Shown here piece after piece: positions 855 to 9,816 of a stretch of DNA of 29,230 nt. A program made the translations under genes and the position numbers. Source of the DNA: a virus; IMG/VR virus record IMGVR_UViG_3300030382_003460, positions 1 through 29,230 of that record; one strand, given 5' to 3'. The notes beneath the pieces are model-generated. The model searched no databases. It was not told the DNA's origin and worked only from the letters and a program-made list of their open reading frames with translations. How positions within the stretch are numbered: the first letter of the stretch is position 1; each line of letters begins with the position of its first letter.

Positions 855-2708
855 CTATTTAATATTACCCCAATTTTTACCAAATTCATAGTCTACTTTA
901 TTTGGAACTTCTAACTCTACAGCACCTTCCATTATATCTTTTATTTTTTGGGCTTCCTTTTCAGAACCTATAGAAATATCTAATTCGTCATGTACTTGAA
1001 GATGTGGAATAATTCCTTCTTTGTGTAATTCAATCATAGCTTTCTTTGTCATGTCTGCAGCAGATCCTTGAATCAATCTATTTAAAGCTTTATATGTGAA
1101 TGCTCTTTTGATCCCTGGTCCGTGTTCCGCGAGCGCTGCATCGTGAGGCAATGCTTTATGTATACCGAATTGATTGGGCTCCCACAAATGAAACCTACAA
1201 AGTCGACCAAGAAGAGTTCTAACTTTCCCTGCTTCTTGTGCTCTGGACATTACGGATTCCATAAGTTGTTTAACAAATGGAACCTTAGAATGATACTGTT
1301 TAAATAATTTTTCGGCTTCTAATTTATTTATACCGAGCTCAGCTTGTAATTTATTTTTTCCCATTCCATAAAACAAACCTAAATTAATAGTTTTGGCTTG
1401 GAATCTTCCAATGTCAGCCATATCAGCTACAATCTGGTGGAAGTCTGCGTCCCCTTGCATATAAGCATGTACAACTTCATCAACCCCATATAAGTTTTGT
1501 AATGCTGCATAATGTACTACAAGTCTTGGCTCTTGTTGGTTGTAATCAAAACAACCCCAAGTATGATCTTGCTCAGGTAAAAATAAGGATCTGATCCGTG
1601 GGCCGAGATCCTTGTTGCGAGCAGGAATCTGCTGTAAATTGGGGTTATTCATCGAAAATCTACCAGTGACTGTCCCACCGCCATCTCCACGCAATTGGTT
1701 AATCTCCGCATGGATACGGCCGTTTAAACTATACTTTAGAATGGTATCTATAAATGTCGTGTGAGCCTTATTAATCTCACGTGCTTTTGCTATACATTTG
1801 ACCACATTATGTGGGTGATTCGCTAAAAAATTCTTGGTAAATGATGGTGCTCCAGTCTTCTCTGTTCTGTCATATGGCAAACCGAGTTTATCAAATACTT
1901 TGGCAATAGACCTTGCAGCCCAAATTTGAACATCAATCCCCGTACTTGTCCACACTTCACCAAGCATTTTTTTCTCTTGTTCTATTAATGTTTTCTTTTC
2001 GATCGCGGCTTGTTCTTGATTTACACGTACACCGAGAAACCGCATATCTACTAGAACAGGAAACAACTCTATTTCCATATCGAATATAGATTGAATGTCC
2101 TGGTGTAAAATTTCTTTTTTACATTCCTGCCACAACTCCAGTGTGAGTTGTGCGTCACGCTCCGCGTAAGCACCAACGTACATGGCTGGAAGTTTATACA
2201 TTTCTGCTTTTGGATCTATGCCCCAGGATTTAGCTGCTTCATATAATGCTGATTCATTTTTTCCTCTTCCAACGTAATCTCTGGATAAACTATTTAAATC
2301 ATAACGTAATCGGTTTTCATCTATAAGAGCGGAAGCAATCATAGTATCTACAATTTTTCCTTTTATTTTTATTCCTAAAGATCGTAACCAACAAACGTCG
2401 TACATTGCATTGTGAAATATTTTTATTGAGTCAGTATTCATTTGGTCCTGTAACCATTTAAGAACCATCTTACGATCCATGTTACCACCACCCTCGTGAG
2501 CTATTGGATAATAAGCACACCAATCAACGGTGGCCAACGAAATACCTACTACTTCACCAACTTTAACCACAGAACCAGATCCCATTCTTTTATTTAGATT
2601 TGGATCTTTTGTTTCTAAGTCTATAGCTATTTCATCGTATTTAGATAGGTCTGGAAAATCAGTTGGTGGTATCCACTCGGTTTGTGGTCTAAATAAAGGT
2701 ACCTGCAT
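855..2708 (-). CDS. Family A DNA polymerase (Pol I type) with 3'-5' exonuclease
   Basis: This is the phage replicative DNA polymerase, 617 residues, in the size range of short phage Pol I enzymes that lack a 5'-3' exonuclease domain. The N-terminal proofreading domain shows Exo I (AIDLET, D30/E32), Exo II (FHNAMYDVCWL, N100/D104) and Exo III (YVGAYAERDAQ, Y181/D185). The polymerase domain shows motif A (DYNQQEPR, 388-395), motif B (RFQAKTINLGLFYG, 435-448) and motif C (VHDE, 572-575). In motif B the residue equivalent to E. coli Phe762 is Leu (L443), a type reported as common in marine viral polymerases. The start codon shares one base with the stop of the DUF3310 gene (TAATG), so translation is probably coupled. 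No separate 5'-3' exonuclease gene is visible in the window. Confidence 0.97.
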   Translation of the reverse strand: MQVPLFRPQTEWIPPTDFPDLSKYDEIAIDLETKDPNLNKRMGSGSVVKVGEVVGISLATVDWCAYYPIAHEGGGNMDRKMVLKWLQDQMNTDSIKIFHNAMYDVCWLRSLGIKIKGKIVDTMIASALIDENRLRYDLNSLSRDYVGRGKNESALYEAAKSWGIDPKAEMYKLPAMYVGAYAERDAQLTLELWQECKKEILHQDIQSIFDMEIELFPVLVDMRFLGVRVNQEQAAIEKKTLIEQEKKMLGEVWTSTGIDVQIWAARSIAKVFDKLGLPYDRTEKTGAPSFTKNFLANHPHNVVKCIAKAREINKAHTTFIDTILKYSLNGRIHAEINQLRGDGGGTVTGRFSMNNPNLQQIPARNKDLGPRIRSLFLPEQDHTWGCFDYNQQEPRLVVHYAALQNLYGVDEVVHAYMQGDADFHQIVADMADIGRFQAKTINLGLFYGMGKNKLQAELGINKLEAEKLFKQYHSKVPFVKQLMESVMSRAQEAGKVRTLLGRLCRFHLWEPNQFGIHKALPHDAALAEHGPGIKRAFTYKALNRLIQGSAADMTKKAMIELHKEGIIPHLQVHDELDISIGSEKEAQKIKDIMEGAVELEVPNKVDYEFGKNWGNIK

Positions 2709-2917
2709 TATTTATAATCTCTTTCTATTGCCATTTCGCAATAATGAATTGCCTTTAATAAATCTTCTTTTTTATTTTTTTGTTTGTGCCTGCATAAATA
2801 TTTTATAGCATTCCCCTCCGCGAACGGAATATTATTTTTATTTATAAATTCACTTGGCTGAATAACCATTGATTGATAATGGGAGCCACCTATTTGTTTT
2901 TTATATGCCTTACTCAT
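2708..2917 (-). CDS. DUF3310 family small protein
   Basis: This 69-residue protein matches DUF3310 from memory: GGSHYQSMVIQPSEF, then an acidic GNAIKYLCRHK block (residues 35-45) and the C-terminal KKEDLLKAIHYCEMAIERD helix. The family is widespread in phages, usually among replication genes, and has no agreed biochemical role, although it is sometimes labelled a nucleotide kinase, which I would not support from sequence. The start overlaps the helicase stop by four bases (ATGA) and the stop overlaps the polymerase start by one base (TAATG). Helicase, DUF3310 and polymerase therefore form a translationally coupled set, probably made in matched amounts, which suggests a replication accessory role. 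Confidence 0.9.
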   Translation of the reverse strand: MSKAYKKQIGGSHYQSMVIQPSEFINKNNIPFAEGNAIKYLCRHKQKNKKEDLLKAIHYCEMAIERDYK

Positions 2918-4404
2918 ATTTTAAAACTTTTGTATATATCCTTCGGTCTAATAATATGTAAATGTTCTTTGGTTCTGGTTGCACCCACATAAAACAATCT
3001 ATTTTCATCATCAGGATATCTTTCATAATTTTTTTGAGTATTATTACTTAAATCAGTCAACAACACTACGTTCTGTGCTTCTCCTCCTTTTACACCATGT
3101 ATCGTAGATAAAGTAATTCGAGGATCTTTATTTAATTGTTCCCCATTTTCTCTCATTCTTCTAATGTATCTAATTTTTTCTTCAGGAGCTTGATCAAAGG
3201 CTTCATACCAAACATTTTTAGTATTTAAACCTTTGTTATTATATAATTCATCAACACTATAAAAGGCATCTTTATCTAAATATTGTATATTCTCTTTGGC
3301 AAAATTATTTGGAGACATATAAGAAGAAATTCTTTTGACTTGATCCATACTTAAAGGAGTTCCCTTGCGAGAATTCTCCCAATCAGTCACAGCTTCGTAT
3401 AAATCTTTTTCATATCCTTTCTTAAATTTATTTTTATAATACATTCCTTTAGAATATAATACATTTTCTAAATCCTCCAACATATATCTAGTTCGAGCTA
3501 AAACTAACCATTCACCTTGAGACATATCTACATTTTGAAATTCATAATAATAAGAGAGAAGACCACGTTCAGTTTTAGGTTTCCATTGTTTATGAATACG
3601 ATTAGAAATTCTTCCCACAATATTCATTGCAACATCATGAACTGCTCTAGGTATTCTGTAAGATTGTGTAAGGTTTAAAAGTCTTCCTTTTTGTGTAATA
3701 AAACTATCTACATCTGCGCCTGCCCATCTAAATATAGCTTGATCATCATCACCTGCTATATAACTATCTCTTGTTTTATCCCATATTGTTTTAGCCATTT
3801 GCCATTGAACTCTAGATAAATCTTGAGCTTCATCTATAAACACTACATCAAATTTAGGAGAGGCATCGCTTAAAACAAACTGAGTTATCATATCCGTAAA
3901 ATCAATTAAATTATATTCTTTTTTATAGGCTTCTATTTCATTTGAAACAATTAATAGATCTCTTAAAGAAACATCTTGAGTATGTTCTTTTAAATTATAC
4001 TGTCTTTCAGGTGTAATGCTTCTTAGTTTTGCTAATTGAATTATTCTAAGTATATCACTATTGGTACTAAAAATTCCGGAATACTCATTGTCATATTCAT
4101 GATAGTCTAATCTTATATTTATTTTTTTTCCTAAATCTTCGTAATGTTTTTTCTGCATTACGTTTTCTTTTTTAATTCCTAGAGTTCTAAAAGCTAAAGA
4201 ATGGAGAGTTCTAAAGTATGGTAAATCATCTTCTGTTAAATTAAATTTTTCTACTGCTCTATCTCTTGCTTCGTACGCGGCTTTTTGAGTAAAAGAAAAA
4301 TAACCAATACGATTAGGATCTGTATTTTTTAAATATTTATCTACTTCATTTAAAAGAGTAGTAGTTTTCCCTGTTCCTGGTGGTCCTAATACAATAGTTT
4401 TCAT
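2914..4404 (-). CDS. UvrD/Dda-like superfamily 1 DNA helicase
   Basis: A 496-residue SF1 helicase that unwinds DNA with ATP. Motif I (Walker A) is GPPGTGKTT at 7-15; motif Ia lies around FSFTQKAAYEA (36-46); motif II is FIDEAQD (189-195); motif III is GDDDQAIFRWAGA (218-230); motif IV is around LTQSYRIPRAV (245-255); motif V is TLSTIHGVKGGE (431-442); and motif VI is FYVGATRTKEHLHI (471-484). The set is complete, so it should be active. The protein is shorter than UvrD/PcrA (about 700 residues) and closer in size to T4 Dda. It sits between the HNH gene and DUF3310/polymerase. As no DnaB-like helicase is seen here, it may be the main fork helicase of this phage, which is inference. Confidence 0.93.
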   Translation of the reverse strand: MKTIVLGPPGTGKTTTLLNEVDKYLKNTDPNRIGYFSFTQKAAYEARDRAVEKFNLTEDDLPYFRTLHSLAFRTLGIKKENVMQKKHYEDLGKKINIRLDYHEYDNEYSGIFSTNSDILRIIQLAKLRSITPERQYNLKEHTQDVSLRDLLIVSNEIEAYKKEYNLIDFTDMITQFVLSDASPKFDVVFIDEAQDLSRVQWQMAKTIWDKTRDSYIAGDDDQAIFRWAGADVDSFITQKGRLLNLTQSYRIPRAVHDVAMNIVGRISNRIHKQWKPKTERGLLSYYYEFQNVDMSQGEWLVLARTRYMLEDLENVLYSKGMYYKNKFKKGYEKDLYEAVTDWENSRKGTPLSMDQVKRISSYMSPNNFAKENIQYLDKDAFYSVDELYNNKGLNTKNVWYEAFDQAPEEKIRYIRRMRENGEQLNKDPRITLSTIHGVKGGEAQNVVLLTDLSNNTQKNYERYPDDENRLFYVGATRTKEHLHIIRPKDIYKSFKI

Positions 4405-4405
4405 T

Positions 4406-4933
4406 TTAATAAATTCCTGACGCTATTTTTTTTTCTTCATAAGACATACCCCTTGGTCTTTTTGTGCCTATATTATTTTTTGAATTTGTAGTCCATCTTA
4501 AATTACTAACTCTATAATCCAGCCTGTCATCATTTATGTGATCAACAATTAATTTTTTTTTAATATCATCATTTATAATAAAAGCTTCTGCTGCAGTTCT
4601 ATGTAATCTAAACTCTAAGGTAATTGTTGGACTATAATTGGTTAAAGTTATAGTACTTCTTATATAAGTTCTATGTAATGTGCTTGATAAAACACGTCCT
4701 GTTTCCATGTTTTTTATGTAAGGAAAGTTCTCACCTAAATCTGGTCTAAATTTATTAATACCTCCAGTTTTAAATATATAAAATTTATCTTTAGGTAAAA
4801 GTTTATATGGATGTTTTCTTTTTTCATCAAATAAATTAACGTCAATGTCAGTAAGATCTACATAATCTACATTTCTTATTTGTGTTTTGTAATCATCATA
4901 TTCTGGAAATAAAAGTAATTGTTCTCTTATCAT
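4406..4933 (-). CDS. HNH-type endonuclease-like protein
   Basis: I place the start at ATG 4933-4931 (175 residues, beginning MIREQLLLFPEYDD), not at an upstream GTG that would overlap the primase. The reason is that this ATG forms an ATGA overlap with the 23-residue gene before it. The C-terminal part is an HNH_3-type domain: LHRTAAEAFI (110-119), VDHINDDRLDYRVSNLRWTT (130-149), SKNN (151-154), with H111, D131-H132 and N144/N154 in the expected places. Such domains occur in free-standing homing endonucleases and in some DNA-processing enzymes. The N-terminal 90 residues match no DNA-binding module I know. Its tight coupling with primase and helicase genes (the stop is one base before the helicase ATG) suggests a resident replication-module gene and not a recent homing insertion. 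Confidence 0.82.
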   Translation of the reverse strand: MIREQLLLFPEYDDYKTQIRNVDYVDLTDIDVNLFDEKRKHPYKLLPKDKFYIFKTGGINKFRPDLGENFPYIKNMETGRVLSSTLHRTYIRSTITLTNYSPTITLEFRLHRTAAEAFIINDDIKKKLIVDHINDDRLDYRVSNLRWTTNSKNNIGTKRPRGMSYEEKKIASGIY

Positions 4934-5001
4934 AATGTAACCAATATCCAAGCTGCTGTTAATACTATTAATAAAGCTAAATCCGAATTCATTTCTTGCA
5001 T
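4930..5001 (-). CDS. 23-residue membrane peptide between primase and HNH genes
   Basis: A very short gene easily missed by gene callers. It starts at ATG 5001-4999, exactly overlapping the primase stop (TAATG), with an AAGGA ribosome site nine bases upstream inside the primase end. It ends in a TGA that overlaps the HNH start (ATGA). The product is MQEMNSDLALLIVLTAAWIL followed by VTL: an acidic seven-residue head and a 16-residue hydrophobic span. Both junctions match the coupling patterns used elsewhere in this genome, which is the main evidence that it is real. The function is unknown; it could anchor something to the membrane, or serve as a translated relay that delivers ribosomes to the HNH gene. 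Confidence 0.6.
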   Translation of the reverse strand: MQEMNSDLALLIVLTAAWILVTL

Positions 5002-6500
5002 TAATATACATCCTTAGGTTTAAATTGTTTAGGTGTATAAACATTATCTTGCCGTGTAAATTCATTAACACTAGTTACTGTTATTTTTTTCTTACCTATA
5101 GTTTCTCTTACAACTTCACACCCACATTTATCTCGTAACATAATAAGAGTCTCGTCATATTTTTCTGTCCATCTTCTTTTGAGTAAAAATTTATTAAAAA
5201 ATTCTCTAAACACAAAATAATGCTTTCCAGCATTAGTCCAAACATTTCCAAACATCATATCTTCTTTTTTAACACCAGCGGCTGTTCTATCTGTACAATA
5301 TTCTTCTAAATGATCTAACAATTGCTCAATTTTGGAAGACCCCATTGGAGGTTCTACAATTTCTATATTGGAAAATAATAATTTAACCATATCGGTAAAT
5401 TCTTTTTTCTTTAAGGTAGGTGGAACTTTATTTACTTGTTCCATAACTGCTCTTTGAAATAATCTTTGTTCTTGTAAATAAGAAGTATCTCTTAATCTAA
5501 CTCTTTCACCATCTACATTAACCCAATAATATGGCTCATCAAGATTTACTTTTTGTAAGTCATTTAAATCTGGAAATAATGATTGTCCTTTTATTCCATA
5601 AGGTCTTTTTAAACATAATTTTTTATCACAATGATTACACATTGGATCTTCCTGACATTTAAAACCTAATTCTTTTTTCTCGTGATATTTTATTTTATCT
5701 TGAATGGTTTTGTCATCTAGTGGTGGGTCAAAGTATTTATAATTAAAAGCATTAATATGCTTTTGCCATTCCTCAGGCCATTTTCTTTTAGCGTATTGAA
5801 TGTATTGATAAATCACTCGATCTCTCCCATCATTTAATTTGTTCTGAGTTAATGACTCAATACAAGGAGGACCATCACTAAATTCTGATTCAGGTCTTTT
5901 TAATTCTAATTTTTCTAATTCTTCTGGAGTAAGTCTTTTGATAGCTAAAAAAAATTGCGATAGTGTAATTGCTTCACCTTTAAAGTTAAAGGCATATCTT
6001 GTTGTTTTTTCTGAATTAAAATATGGTAAATTAAGAAAATTTCCTGTATCATCTTCCGATTTTAATTCAACTTGTTTGGGAAAAACTTCTGCGTTACCAA
6101 ATCCTAAAAACGCACTAATAGAACTTAGCTTATCCCTCATTAAAGAAGCATCCACTGGAACGGTAGTAAATAAAAATATATGTGCTCCTCCACTTTTAGA
6201 ACGACACATAGTAAGAGGTAAACGAAAATTGTTTATAAGGTCTATAATTTTTTTATGATTTAAATTATATTTATCAACGTCTATACATCCCCATTTACAT
6301 TTATTATTTTCATCAATAGGTATAATTCCTAGACTTGGTTCTATTCCTTTGAGGTGGTTAGTCCACAATTGGTCGGTAACGGCTTCTCTTTTAACAAAAG
6401 ATTTTCCCTTAATTTTGGTTCCATCAGCGTTTTTCTTTTCGACGTAGGTACATCCATGGGCTCTTTGTAATCCTGAAAATAAATCAATAAAATTTTTCAT
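5001..6500 (-). CDS. Archaeo-eukaryotic-type primase (AEP/primase-polymerase)
   Basis: The start is ATG 6500-6498, with AAAGGA five bases upstream; a longer frame from 6548 would cross a GC-rich hairpin. The 499-residue protein has an AEP catalytic core: WGCIDVD (D74 and D76 as the metal-binding DxD), RSKSGGAHIFLF (100-111, with H107 as the conserved His), then VFPKQVELKSEDDTGNFLNLPYF (139-161), a block characteristic of TOTE-like and phage AEP primases. A PriCT-like helical region follows (about 222-275), then a cysteine cluster C282-C288-C291-C296, likely binding zinc or an Fe-S cluster. The last 170 residues are unassigned and contain a probable winged-helix-like region. It should lay RNA or DNA primers for the neighbouring polymerase. 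No helicase domain is fused to it. Confidence 0.85.
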   Translation of the reverse strand: MKNFIDLFSGLQRAHGCTYVEKKNADGTKIKGKSFVKREAVTDQLWTNHLKGIEPSLGIIPIDENNKCKWGCIDVDKYNLNHKKIIDLINNFRLPLTMCRSKSGGAHIFLFTTVPVDASLMRDKLSSISAFLGFGNAEVFPKQVELKSEDDTGNFLNLPYFNSEKTTRYAFNFKGEAITLSQFFLAIKRLTPEELEKLELKRPESEFSDGPPCIESLTQNKLNDGRDRVIYQYIQYAKRKWPEEWQKHINAFNYKYFDPPLDDKTIQDKIKYHEKKELGFKCQEDPMCNHCDKKLCLKRPYGIKGQSLFPDLNDLQKVNLDEPYYWVNVDGERVRLRDTSYLQEQRLFQRAVMEQVNKVPPTLKKKEFTDMVKLLFSNIEIVEPPMGSSKIEQLLDHLEEYCTDRTAAGVKKEDMMFGNVWTNAGKHYFVFREFFNKFLLKRRWTEKYDETLIMLRDKCGCEVVRETIGKKKITVTSVNEFTRQDNVYTPKQFKPKDVY

Positions 6501-6510
6501 AATTCCTTTA

Positions 6511-6549
6511 GTTGGCGGGGCGATTCCAGTCTCCCTTTGTCGCCCCAAC
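6511..6549 (-). ncRNA. GC-rich RNA hairpin in the primase leader
   Basis: In the minus-strand transcript, GGGGCGA (6523-6517 complement) can pair with TCGCCCC across a 16-base purine-rich loop. A further GTT/AAC pairing continues it past a three-base bulge, and an alternative register gives 5+5 pairs. The stem is strikingly GC-rich for this genome. It ends directly before the TAAAGGA ribosome site of the primase, leaving that site free. There is no T-run, so it is not an intrinsic terminator. Candidate roles are a binding site for a regulator (as in T4 gp32-type autoregulation), an RNA processing site or a DNA origin structure; none is shown. Confidence 0.5.
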
Positions 6550-6551
6550 CG

Positions 6552-6578
6552 TTCCCTGAAGTGGTTATTTTTAGGGAA
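6552..6578 (-). other. Second, weaker inverted repeat between unknown gene and primase
   Basis: TTCCCT at 6552-6557 and AGGGAA at 6573-6578 form a six-base-pair stem with a 15-base AT-rich loop, just after the stop of the 255-residue protein gene and immediately before the larger hairpin. Two hairpins in an 80-base gap of an otherwise gapless operon suggest a control or processing point between the two genes. The stem alone is short enough to arise by chance. Confidence 0.3.
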
Positions 6579-6581
6579 TTC

Positions 6582-7349
6582 TTAAAAGTGACTTTTGGTT
6601 GCGGTGTTAGAATCAGAACTATGCTTAGCTTCTACTTCTCCTTTAGATACTTGCTTAGAAAAAGCTTTAGCCATTTCATATGATCCTCTGTCTTTTACAG
6701 GTTCAACCTTAGACACATCCCAACCAAACCATGTACCTTTGTCATTAGACTGTTGTACACTTCTTAATTTATAAACGTGACTAAATGATGGCGGCTGATA
6801 AAGACCGTTTTTACCTCTCAAAATAACGTTATTCATCATTGAGTTCCACTTACGACTTGTTTTTAATTGAGTCGCTTTCATGGAAAGTAAAGCCCTTTGA
6901 GGGACTCCATTCAATTTGATAACGTAATGAGACGCAGTGGTTTCAAGATAATTGCCGTTAGCTAATCTATCTTTATTCCCTTTGTCTCTTGTGGTTTTAG
7001 GTAGGTCGTCTCCAGCTTCATATATTTTTACTGGTGCTCCCCCACTTTCACCTCTGTCTTTCCACTCAATGTACTGTCTTTTATAATACACCGGTAAGAC
7101 ATCTATCCCCTTTTCACCATCAAACAGTTCATTTGTAACTGTATTGATTATCATGCCAGGTTCTGCCCCCTTGACATATTTTGCATCTCTCTTGTTGCAT
7201 TCAGGAGATAATTGACTCAAGATTTTCAAAAACGGAAGTGCTTGATCCTCTTGTGTCATTGCACCAGTATCCTGATGCTTATCAGCTTCAAACATATCAG
7301 TTGATAATGCTCCAGCTGGTTGTTTTTTCATTACTTCTTGTTGGTTCAT
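6582..7349 (-). CDS. Conserved phage protein of replication module, possible ssDNA-binding role
   Basis: A 255-residue soluble protein that I do not recognise with certainty. Residues 38-68 (LPFLKILSQLSPECN... GAEPGMIINT) and 80-100 (KGIDVLPVYYKRQYIEWKDRG) form a block I have seen in hypothetical proteins of replication modules in diverse phages. The rest alternates beta strands with basic patches (KLKSRKWN-like segment near 165), and the last 25 residues are polar and probably disordered (SDSNTATKSHF end). An acidic or disordered tail after a beta-rich core is common in single-stranded DNA-binding proteins, but this tail is not clearly acidic, so the role is only a suggestion. An AAGGA ribosome site lies about 11 bases before the ATG. 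The gene directly precedes the hairpin leader of the primase. Confidence 0.8.
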   Translation of the reverse strand: MNQQEVMKKQPAGALSTDMFEADKHQDTGAMTQEDQALPFLKILSQLSPECNKRDAKYVKGAEPGMIINTVTNELFDGEKGIDVLPVYYKRQYIEWKDRGESGGAPVKIYEAGDDLPKTTRDKGNKDRLANGNYLETTASHYVIKLNGVPQRALLSMKATQLKTSRKWNSMMNNVILRGKNGLYQPPSFSHVYKLRSVQQSNDKGTWFGWDVSKVEPVKDRGSYEMAKAFSKQVSKGEVEAKHSSDSNTATKSHF

Positions 7350-7351
7350 GA

Positions 7352-7906
7352 TTATTGTTTCCTTTTTATTGTTGTTTTATTTCCAATGAAAACATTGAAA
7401 AGTTCCGTTGGCATTTCTTTACCGCCTTCGATTCGTTCACGGACTAACGCTTTCAGGGTCATAGGCTCAACCTTCAACTTTTGTGTCGGTTGATGCCCTT
7501 GACCCCTCGCAAGTTCAGCGTAATTCGCTGCCTTGTTATCTTCGTTACGACCAAAGGAGACCGTGATTTCATTCTTTATAATATCTCCAAGACCGTTTTG
7601 ACGAAGCCAGTTAAACGCCTTCTCTTTATTGGCTTGAGTAATTGTGGCGCTATAATTTGTTTTAACTTCTACTGATGATCCATCAGCAAGTTTAAGATAA
7701 GATAATCCCATTTCTGCTAACATTGTTGGAATTACTTCTCCTGAAACATGTTCTAAATCTTTTTTTCTTTGTTTTAAAAATTCTTCTTTTAACTCAATAT
7801 CTTGTTGTATTGATTGCATCTCTTTTATTTTAGTTGCAAGTTTATCAATATTAGAAGTTTTTTCTACAACATCTTGTTTATCTTCTTCAAAATTAATTTC
7901 ACTCAT
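7352..7906 (-). CDS. Coiled-coil protein of replication module, unknown function
   Basis: This 184-residue protein begins with an acidic N-terminus and a likely coiled coil at residues 14-52 (charged heptads through KLATKIKEMQSIQQDIELKE). A small domain follows: PTMLAEMGLSYLKLADGSSVEV (60-81), then KEKAFNWLRQNGLGDIIKNEITVSFGR (95-120). The C-terminus is basic. The layout (coil, then a beta-hairpin domain that recurs in podovirus early regions) is familiar, but I know of no biochemical role. AAAGGA lies seven bases before the ATG, and the start overlaps the end of the preceding gene by eight bases, so the two are co-transcribed. It is followed two bases after its stop by the 255-residue protein gene. 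Confidence 0.8.
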   Translation of the reverse strand: MSEINFEEDKQDVVEKTSNIDKLATKIKEMQSIQQDIELKEEFLKQRKKDLEHVSGEVIPTMLAEMGLSYLKLADGSSVEVKTNYSATITQANKEKAFNWLRQNGLGDIIKNEITVSFGRNEDNKAANYAELARGQGHQPTQKLKVEPMTLKALVRERIEGGKEMPTELFNVFIGNKTTIKRKQ

Positions 7907-8306
7907 CTATTTTTCCTTTCTCGAATAAATTTATTTCTATTGGATAATATTTTCTTTCTTGTTTGTCCCATTTTAATAATTTATATTTTCCGTTTGTTAT
8001 ATCAGATACAATAGAACAAGCAACTCCAATGATTGCTGGGTCGCCCGTTAACAATAAATAATCTTGAGAAGAGTAATCTTTCAACCCTTGTCTCAATTTA
8101 TATATTAACGGGCCAGGAGAAAATATGATTTGAGAAAGCTCGGGGAGTAAAAATTTAAAAGCGCCATAGTTGGCAGCACCCATAATATTAATTTTAGGTT
8201 TGCCCTCTCGAGTTCCCGCGATTTCTTGAATCACATACACTGTTGGTGACCGTGTTTTCCAAGCCTCAAATGGTAAATCATTCTTCCGAGCTTTCATACT
8301 TGACAT
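7899..8306 (-). CDS. Unknown conserved protein, first gene of the replication operon
   Basis: A 135-residue protein (132 if it starts at the second ATG, 8297-8295) with no motif I recognise. It has a basic N-terminus (KARKNDLPFEAWKTRS), a central beta-rich region and a hydrophobic stretch near residues 90-104 (PAIIGVACSIVSDIT) that is too interrupted for a clear membrane segment. It is the first minus-strand gene after the strand switch. The ATG at 8306 lies inside the predicted -10 element of the minus promoter, while ATG 8297 lies two bases after the predicted transcription start. I therefore favour 8297 and a leaderless mRNA; no Shine-Dalgarno sequence precedes either ATG. Confidence 0.75.
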   Translation of the reverse strand: MSSMKARKNDLPFEAWKTRSPTVYVIQEIAGTREGKPKINIMGAANYGAFKFLLPELSQIIFSPGPLIYKLRQGLKDYSSQDYLLLTGDPAIIGVACSIVSDITNGKYKLLKWDKQERKYYPIEINLFEKGKIDE

Positions 8307-8327
8307 ATATAGTAGATGTGTTATAAA
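8300..8327 (+). promoter_or_regulatory. Sigma-70-like promoter for the SNF2 helicase gene
   Basis: TTGACA (8300-8305, perfect -35) is followed by a 16-base spacer and TATAAA (8322-8327, 5/6 of the -10 consensus) on the plus strand. Transcription would start near 8334, eight bases before the ATG at 8342. It is the only gene on this strand, so a private promoter is required, which supports the call. It overlaps the opposing promoter almost completely. Confidence 0.65.
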
Positions 8328-8334
8328 AAGTCAA
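8306..8334 (-). promoter_or_regulatory. Sigma-70-like promoter for the replication operon
   Basis: On the minus strand TTGACT (8334-8329) is followed by an optimal 17-base spacer and TATATA (8311-8306). Transcription would start near 8299, two bases before the ATG at 8297. The -35 element of this promoter lies just beyond the -10 element of the plus-strand promoter and vice versa, so two RNA polymerases could not bind at once. Confidence 0.6.
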
Positions 8335-8341
8335 TAGAAAG

Positions 8342-9772
8342 ATGAATTATAAATTTAAGACAAAGCCCTATAAGCATCAAACTACTGCTTTAGAAAAGTC
8401 GTGGAATAAAGAAACGTTTGCTTATTTTATGGAAATGGGAACGGGTAAAACAAAAGTCCTATTAGATAATACGGCAATGCTTTATGATAAAGGTAAAATT
8501 GATGGTGCCTTAATTGTAGCTCCCAAAGGAGTTGTATCTACGTGGTATAATCAAGAAATTCCTGCTCATCTTCCTGATCACATAGAAAAAGTGGCAGTAA
8601 TGTGGCAAGCAAATATAAATAAAAAACAACAAGATAAATTAAACCAACTGTTCAAAACGGGCCAAGAACTTCATGTATTAATAATGAATGTAGAAGCCTT
8701 TAGTACAGACAAAGGTAGATTTTTTGCCACTAAATTTTTAAGATCACACAAAACGTTAATGGCGATAGATGAATCCACTACAATAAAGAACCCCAAAGCA
8801 AAACGTACTAAAAACATTTTAGATCTTTCTTCTTTAGCTAAATATAGAAGAATAATGACAGGTTCTCCTGTAACTAAGAATCCATTGGATTTATATAGCC
8901 AATGTGAGTTTTTAGATCCAGCACATCTAGATTTTGTGTCCTATTATGCTTTTAGAAATAGATATGCTGAAATGAAAACATTACATATTGCCGGTAGATC
9001 TATTCAAGTTGTAAGCCATTTTAAAAACTTAGGGGAACTGTCTGATCAACTACAAACGTTTTCATATAGGGTATTAAAAGAAGATTGTTTAGATTTACCA
9101 AGTAAAATATATATGAAAAGAGAAATAGAATTAACTCCTCAACAACAAAAAGTATATAAACAAATGAAGCAAGAAGCGTTAGCTACACTTAATGGTAAAA
9201 CTGTAACTACAATGACGGCATTAACACAGTTAATGAGACTACATCAAATAACGTGTGGTCATTTTTCTGCGGATGATGGAAGTATTCAAAGCATTAAGAA
9301 TAATAGATTATCTGCCTTGTTAGAAATTATAGAGGAGGTAGAAGGAAAAGCCATTATATGGGCCCACTATCAACACGATGTAAAAACCATTGTTAAAGCC
9401 ATAGAAAAAGAATATGGTCCGGGGTCCGTGGTTCATTATTATGGCAAAACGCTACCCGAACAACGAATCAAGGCTCTTAAAAATTTTAAAGAAAAATATA
9501 AATGTAGGTTTTTTGTAGGAACTCCACAAACTAGTGGTTATGGATTAACTTTAGTAACAGCTAACACGGTTATTTATTACTCTAACGGATATGATTTAGA
9601 AAAAAGAATGCAGTCGGAAGACAGAGCACACCGAATAGGACAAAAAAAATCGGTAACATACATAGATCTTATAGCAGAAGAGACTGTGGATACTAAAATT
9701 GTTAAATCCCTTCGTAAGAAAATTAATATAGCATCAGAAGTAATGGGGGAAGAACTCCGTAAATGGATTTAA
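8342..9772 (+). CDS. SNF2-like superfamily 2 helicase/translocase
   Basis: This 476-residue protein is a compact SNF2/SWI2-type ATPase that moves along double-stranded DNA. It shows the Q-like KPYKHQ at 8-13, motif I EMGTGKT (31-37), motif Ia IVAPKGVVSTW (58-68), motif II AIDEST (141-146; DEST in place of DEAH), motif III MTGSPVTKN (172-180) and motif VI QSEDRAHRIGQ (424-434), the signature of the SNF2 branch. There is no extra nuclease, RING or bromodomain, and its length is minimal for the family. Similar phage proteins are thought to act in replication, recombination or displacement of bound proteins; no specific role can be read here. It is the sole plus-strand gene, driven by its own promoter and ending in a hairpin terminator. 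A weak AGAAAG precedes the ATG. Confidence 0.93.
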   Translation: MNYKFKTKPYKHQTTALEKSWNKETFAYFMEMGTGKTKVLLDNTAMLYDKGKIDGALIVAPKGVVSTWYNQEIPAHLPDHIEKVAVMWQANINKKQQDKLNQLFKTGQELHVLIMNVEAFSTDKGRFFATKFLRSHKTLMAIDESTTIKNPKAKRTKNILDLSSLAKYRRIMTGSPVTKNPLDLYSQCEFLDPAHLDFVSYYAFRNRYAEMKTLHIAGRSIQVVSHFKNLGELSDQLQTFSYRVLKEDCLDLPSKIYMKREIELTPQQQKVYKQMKQEALATLNGKTVTTMTALTQLMRLHQITCGHFSADDGSIQSIKNNRLSALLEIIEEVEGKAIIWAHYQHDVKTIVKAIEKEYGPGSVVHYYGKTLPEQRIKALKNFKEKYKCRFFVGTPQTSGYGLTLVTANTVIYYSNGYDLEKRMQSEDRAHRIGQKKSVTYIDLIAEETVDTKIVKSLRKKINIASEVMGEELRKWI

Positions 9773-9793: not shown

Positions 9794-9816
9794 CGCGCGA
9801 GGCGCGCAGAATTTTT
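9794..9816 (+). terminator. Intrinsic terminator after the SNF2 helicase gene
   Basis: CGCGC (9794-9798) and GCGCG (9802-9806) form a compact GC stem with a GAG loop, followed after five bases by TTTTT (9812-9816). It lies 22 bases after the helicase stop, where a terminator is expected between convergent genes. The other strand has no T-run after the stem, so it should stop rightward transcription much better than leftward. Confidence 0.6.

Follow-up and report, generated by a model that had tools for sequence, protein, structure and literature searches.

Interlocked divergent sigma70-type promoters between the SNF2 helicase gene and the replication operon of pelagiphages: a probable compact bidirectional promoter

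The 35-bp element at the strand switch between the SNF2 helicase gene and the replication operon of a pelagiphage fragment is, as judged from its sequence, probably a compact bidirectional promoter for host sigma70 serving both transcription units, and not a bistable switch. One polymerase would bind at TTGACA/TATAAA and transcribe the SNF2 helicase gene rightward, and another, facing the opposite way at TTGACT/TATATA, would transcribe the replication operon, from the gp32-like gene to the DNA polymerase A gene, leftward, with the first gene of this transcript almost leaderless. The overlapping footprints would lead to mutual exclusion, and the strengths of the hexamers would set the ratio of the two transcripts. 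Such an element may serve to let the host enzyme express the two replication units together from as little DNA as possible.

The stretch analysed (the window) is a virus record of 29,230 bases, corresponding to about half of a 58-61 kb genome. Among annotated phages it stands closest to 023Pt_psg01 and to two pelagiphages, HTVC027P and HTVC023P; the DNA comes from a pelagiphage of the HTVC023P/HTVC027P kind. The features discussed here are listed in Table 1. The start codon of the gp32-like gene was read as the ATG at 8297 (MKARKNDLP...) and not that at 8306, the resulting N-terminus matching gp01 of HTVC027P in length. No convincing DNA-binding regulator was found among the scanned proteins of the 29 kb record, which covers about half of the genome. 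HTVC027P encodes no RNA polymerase and depends on that of its host throughout (PMC12753301). The hairpin at the convergent junction of the SNF2 and hsp20 genes is very GC-rich and is followed by a run of T. The HNH endonuclease gene (4406-5071), between the genes for the primase and the UvrD-like helicase, perhaps codes for a mobile endonuclease; the reading frame upstream of it overlaps the primase gene.

Table 1 Features at and around the strand switch (positions in the window)
Feature	Position	Strand	Basis or remark
Interlocked divergent promoter element, TTGAC ... GTCAA, 35 bp	8300..8334	.	Sequence, pair score, conservation
Plus promoter -35, TTGACA (SNF2 helicase)	8300..8305	+	Sequence
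Plus promoter extended -10, TGT TATAAA	8319..8327	+	Spacer to -35 of 16 bp
Minus promoter -35, TTGACT (replication operon)	8329..8334	-	Sequence
Minus promoter -10, TATATA	8306..8311	-	17 bp to its own -35
Predicted start of SNF2 mRNA	8334	+	8-nt leader; inferred, 7th base past the -10
Predicted start of replication-operon mRNA	8299	-	2-nt leader, almost leaderless; inferred
SNF2-family helicase gene (PF00176/PF00271)	8342..9772	+	Sole long plus-strand gene of the window
Terminator-like hairpin past SNF2, ahead of the convergent hsp20 gene	9794..9806	+	Consensus scan only
First gene of the minus operon, Pam3 gp32-like (PF23992)	7899..8297	-	Pfam E 9.5e-32
Remaining minus operon	855..7906	-	Pam3 gp33-like, Pam3 gp34-like, AEP primase, HNH endonuclease, UvrD-like helicase, DUF3310, DNA polymerase A

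Re-reading of the sequence between 8300 and 8334 confirmed the hexamers and spacings given in an earlier note on this DNA, TTGACA-16-TATAAA on the plus strand and TTGACT-17-TATATA on the minus strand, as well as the interlock, in which the -10 of either promoter sits between the -35 and the -10 of the other. The description of both as near-consensus fits the plus promoter (11 of 12 positions) better than the minus promoter (9 of 12). The plus promoter also has a TGn extended -10, which the note had not mentioned (TGT at 8319-8321, directly before TATAAA at 8322-8327). Both strands, in the window and in its relatives, have the features of alphaproteobacterial sigma70 promoters, i.e. a TTGACA-like -35, a TATANN-like -10 and a spacer of about 17 bp, with T at -7 being optional; host RpoD would be the factor expected to recognise them. 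When +1 is placed seven bases past each -10, following the typical distance in PMC8407463, the predicted starts (8334 and 8299) lie 35 bp apart, so the footprints of two polymerases would coincide on the same DNA. The claim that only one polymerase could be accommodated at a time thus agrees with steric reasoning from the overlap of the predicted footprints.

The inverted repeat formed by the TTGAC/GTCAA ends, to which the earlier note had also drawn attention, is present, but by itself it is no rarer than chance: the reversed pattern occurs twice per strand in this AT-rich record of 29,230 bases, and the bare repeat was dropped as evidence. The pair of promoters exceeds what chance would give. 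With a matrix not demanding T at -7, the plus promoter ranked 3rd and the minus promoter 10th of 58,460 start positions. The interlocked pair ranked first of 233,480 placements with this matrix (score 21.6, against 15.0 for the runner-up), and none of 2000 dinucleotide shuffles of the 160-nt region reached its score. With the textbook E. coli matrix the pair was only at rank 11, because both -10 hexamers lack T at -7. The -7 position was relaxed only after the sequence had been seen, which makes the matrix test weak when taken alone; the relaxation is justified by start-site data from alphaproteobacteria, in which more than 60 % of sigma70 -10 hexamers have no T at -7 (PMC8407463).

The strongest evidence that the promoter pair is more than a chance occurrence is its conservation. 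SNF2 and gp32-like loci were gathered by protein similarity, those with identical 90-nt upstream sequences being counted once; loci that had been retrieved by means of the DNA pattern itself did not enter the counts. The exact pattern TTGAC-N23..28-GTCAA was found in 206 of 257 distinct loci in which a gp32-like gene is divergent from SNF2, a count that does not represent independent events, since the loci are mutually related and are the best-ranking matches to a small number of query proteins. Both promoters and their spacing are thus conserved in most of the relatives compared. The other 51 loci comprise 47 of the HTVC027P type (46 with TTGAC only, and L478), one with a single mismatch in the minus pentamer (L286), one with a weak minus -35 (L256), one in which the promoters are apart (L064) and phage DSL-LC04, a distant member of the set. 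In the SNF2 tree the interlocked form occurs in 127 of the 149 rows of one large clade. TATA was present at the place of the own -10, 16-19 nt from the end of TTGAC, in 288 of 342 strand-elements, compared with 38.1 ± 5.2 after shuffling, although 11 of 40 plus halves in the class of 34-bp elements have no TATA at the expected distance. The modal spacer was 17 on both strands, the predicted divergent starts were 31-39 bp apart, and T at -7 was present in just 32 % and 35 % of cases on the two strands, a scarcity which matches the expectation for alphaproteobacterial sigma70 (PMC8407463).

The same comparison bears on the possibility that TTGAC and GTCAA form the two halves of a site for a dimeric regulator, from the phage or the host, and that the likeness to promoters is secondary. 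The inverted repeat of the pentamer is perfect and is retained in most relatives, and among the 34-bp elements the two arms of one locus resemble each other more than arms taken from different loci. In the larger class of 37-bp elements the opposite holds, and since arm symmetry is thus above the permutation level in one class and below it in the other, dyad symmetry as such does not appear to be maintained. The distance between the half-sites also varies, the element being 33-38 bp long across relatives. The own -10 lies at a steady 16-17 bp from its -35 (TTGAC to its own distal -10 mostly 17-18), whereas TTGAC and the neighbouring -10 of the opposite strand are anywhere from 1 to 7 apart, which fits two promoters and not a palindromic operator. 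Moreover, where the promoters have become separated, the pentamer which serves as the -35 of no promoter disappears. With a variable length and inconsistent arm symmetry in place of the fixed spacing and symmetric arms of a dimeric operator, this explanation was rejected and is considered very unlikely.

Several relatives show other arrangements of the two promoters. In L064 the divergent gene order is kept and the promoters stand apart, with 26 bp between the two -35 hexamers. Its sister in the tree, L532, is interlocked and has the minus promoter TTGACA-16-TATATT-GTCAAGC-ATG, the corresponding sequence of L064 being TTGACA-16-TATATT-GCTAATT-ATG; the promoter's own hexamers and the 7 nt to the ATG are thus retained, and only the pentamer belonging to the plus promoter is lost. 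In L036, L274 and L077 the element is separated from the gp32-like gene by a minus-strand gene of 199 amino acids, and the gp32-like gene has a one-sided promoter, TTGACA-16-TATATT or TATATG, located 7-8 nt from the ATG and without GTCAA. In L046, L504 and L511 the element is still found at the strand switch, with SNF2 either behind an additional plus-strand gene or about 590 nt away; L504 and L511 belong to the HTVC027P clade and their element has the shared -10 form of that clade. The HTVC027P group, which is nested in the large clade, has plus TTGACT-17-TATATA and minus TTTACT-16-TATATA with one common TATATA, the minus -35 being TTTACT in 46 of the 47 loci of this type and TTGCTT in one. 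HTVC027P had at first been taken to have lost its minus promoter; this was withdrawn, TTTACT-16-TATATA making use of the TATATA of the plus promoter. In the HTVC023P group, outside the large clade, the interlocked element is absent and the divergent order is kept; candidate promoters recognised by eye only are TTGATT-17-TAAATA and TTTGCA-16-TATATT, with the -35 hexamers side by side. The divergent gene arrangement therefore outlives the interlock.

Some further observations were made on these and more distant phages. The HTVC023P clade (L085/L082 record ends; L171-L249) has a different conserved intergenic block, TCAATATATTATT..TTGATT..TGCAAACAAATAATTTAAATAATT, resembling back-to-back promoters, and its minus gene has a strong Shine-Dalgarno sequence, AAGGAGG. 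Phage DSL-LC04 (L089), from freshwater and with a gammaproteobacterial host on record, has the gp32-like and SNF2 genes in divergent order. The interlock is absent there, the intergenic region is longer, and between the primase and helicase genes there is one for a small protein carrying the annotation sigma-G factor. Contigs binned as Marinimicrobia and Cytophagaceae genomes (L608 and L609) carry the same phage type, probably as phage DNA mis-assigned by binning rather than as a sign of true hosts.

If only one direction worked, the hexamers of the other would be chance matches in AT-rich DNA. The -10 of the minus promoter in the window is indeed weak by E. coli rules and scores modestly, and a generic sigma70 consensus scan of the window listed neither promoter, because a hit there requires T at -7 together with 9 matches out of 12. 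Against this, the -10 hexamers belonging to both promoters are conserved far above the shuffled level, the gp32-like gene of L036, L274 and L077 still has the minus promoter, by itself, in front of it, and in L064 the plus promoter keeps its hexamers even though it is apart from the minus promoter. A single working direction is accordingly regarded as very improbable.

Of 137 distinct interlocked loci, 96 have an in-frame ATG for the first minus gene at 34-39 nt, most often 36, counted from where the minus -35 starts, whatever the length of the element; the distance of this ATG from the other TTGAC was more variable (standard deviation 1.7, compared with 1.1). This steady distance from the minus -35 fits a start codon at or just past the predicted transcription start. 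The psg01 group differs in having a longer leader. On the other side, GAAAG at 8337-8341 of the window directly adjoins the ATG of SNF2 at 8342; the motif is found 2-4 nt past the element on the SNF2 side in most relatives, recurs at the gp32 transcript start, and precedes the ATG of the inserted genes by about 8-10 nt. Given this last distance it may be a Shine-Dalgarno-like site, which we presume would pair with the tail of the 16S rRNA. A role of GAAAG as an upstream promoter element was disfavoured, because the motif of L064 remains within the transcribed parts instead of moving with the -35 hexamers.

The earlier note had proposed that expression of the helicase and of the replication operon would be antagonistic, with the switch set by promoter occupancy. 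For this to be so, mutual exclusion itself would have to be selected, with the two units expressed in opposition. The interlock is kept in most lineages although the spacing could have drifted apart, and the HTVC027P clade, with its altered geometry, still has one common -10. In bidirectional promoters of E. coli, competition was negligible at basal strength, weakening of one -35 having left the divergent transcript of five basal promoters unchanged, and appeared once one -35 was strengthened (PMC12825309); both -35 hexamers are strong here, near consensus and thus in the regime in which competition appears, so competition is possible. Both genes, however, have replication functions, and exclusion alone would give alternate firing, with no memory; exclusion without feedback yields alternation and a ratio, not a switch. 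The promoters of L064 are apart, and the HTVC023P clade is without the element, its candidate hexamers placing the -35s side by side. The note had named loss of one promoter with gene order kept as a finding that would count against its proposal, and this was borne out in part, the HTVC023P clade, the HTVC027P clade and L064 all showing other geometries. The antagonistic switch did not hold up as proposed, and we consider it unlikely. A related idea, which we also consider unlikely, is that steric exclusion itself is selected across pelagiphages as a regulator-free device, in which polymerase occupancy would fix the ratio of helicase to replication proteins and perhaps damp expression noise, the promoter geometry (interlocked, with a shared -10, or apart) evolving as a tuning knob.

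Overlapping divergent promoters of related design are known, and the element interpreted here as a compact bidirectional promoter is a variant of them. In the Pc/Pr pair of the Bacillus subtilis plasmid pLS20, the hexamers favoured for Pr fall on the -35 and -10 of Pc, in the opposite order, and both promoters use the housekeeping sigma factor (PMC4207663). The exchange of boxes is the same as in the phage element, although exact in pLS20 and offset by a few bp here. In pLS20, Pr is weak, needs RcoLS20 and drives the regulator, and looping makes a real switch (PMC4207663), whereas the phage element has two -35 hexamers near consensus, serves replication genes on either side and is not flanked by a regulator gene. 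Its neighbours in the window code for SNF2, the Pam3 gp32/33/34-like proteins, primase, helicase and polymerase, and the scanned window proteins include no convincing regulator. The bidirectional promoters described by Warman, Grainger and colleagues are pseudo-symmetric sigma70 sites which are used in either orientation by one polymerase at a time, often between divergent genes (PMC12825309; PMC10268837), and the phage element likewise has sigma70 sites in both orientations between divergent genes. Promoters of that class, which are common, share one -10 and have starts 7-25 bp apart, mostly 18 (PMC10268837). The element in the window differs in having two separate -10 hexamers and predicted starts 35 bp apart (31-39 in relatives), whereas the HTVC027P clade, with a single TATATA for both directions, fits the class, and for HTVC027P divergent starts about 19 bp apart are predicted. 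Alphaproteobacterial sigma70 promoters resemble the element in their TTG-type -35, 17-bp spacer and mostly missing T at -7 (PMC8407463), but they usually act in one direction and the species set of that study is without SAR11.

Exchanged boxes, as in pLS20, and promoters with a shared -10 were thus known already; the new finding is that many pelagiphages have kept a two-sided interlock of near-consensus promoters, beside relatives in which it has been undone. The interlocked pair in about 200 distinct loci, together with the separated, one-sided, shared -10 and element-free relatives, forms a natural series, suited to the question of whether competition between polymerases at bidirectional promoters is exploited or simply put up with. 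The element is also a candidate host-type promoter for the annotation of phages of SAR11.
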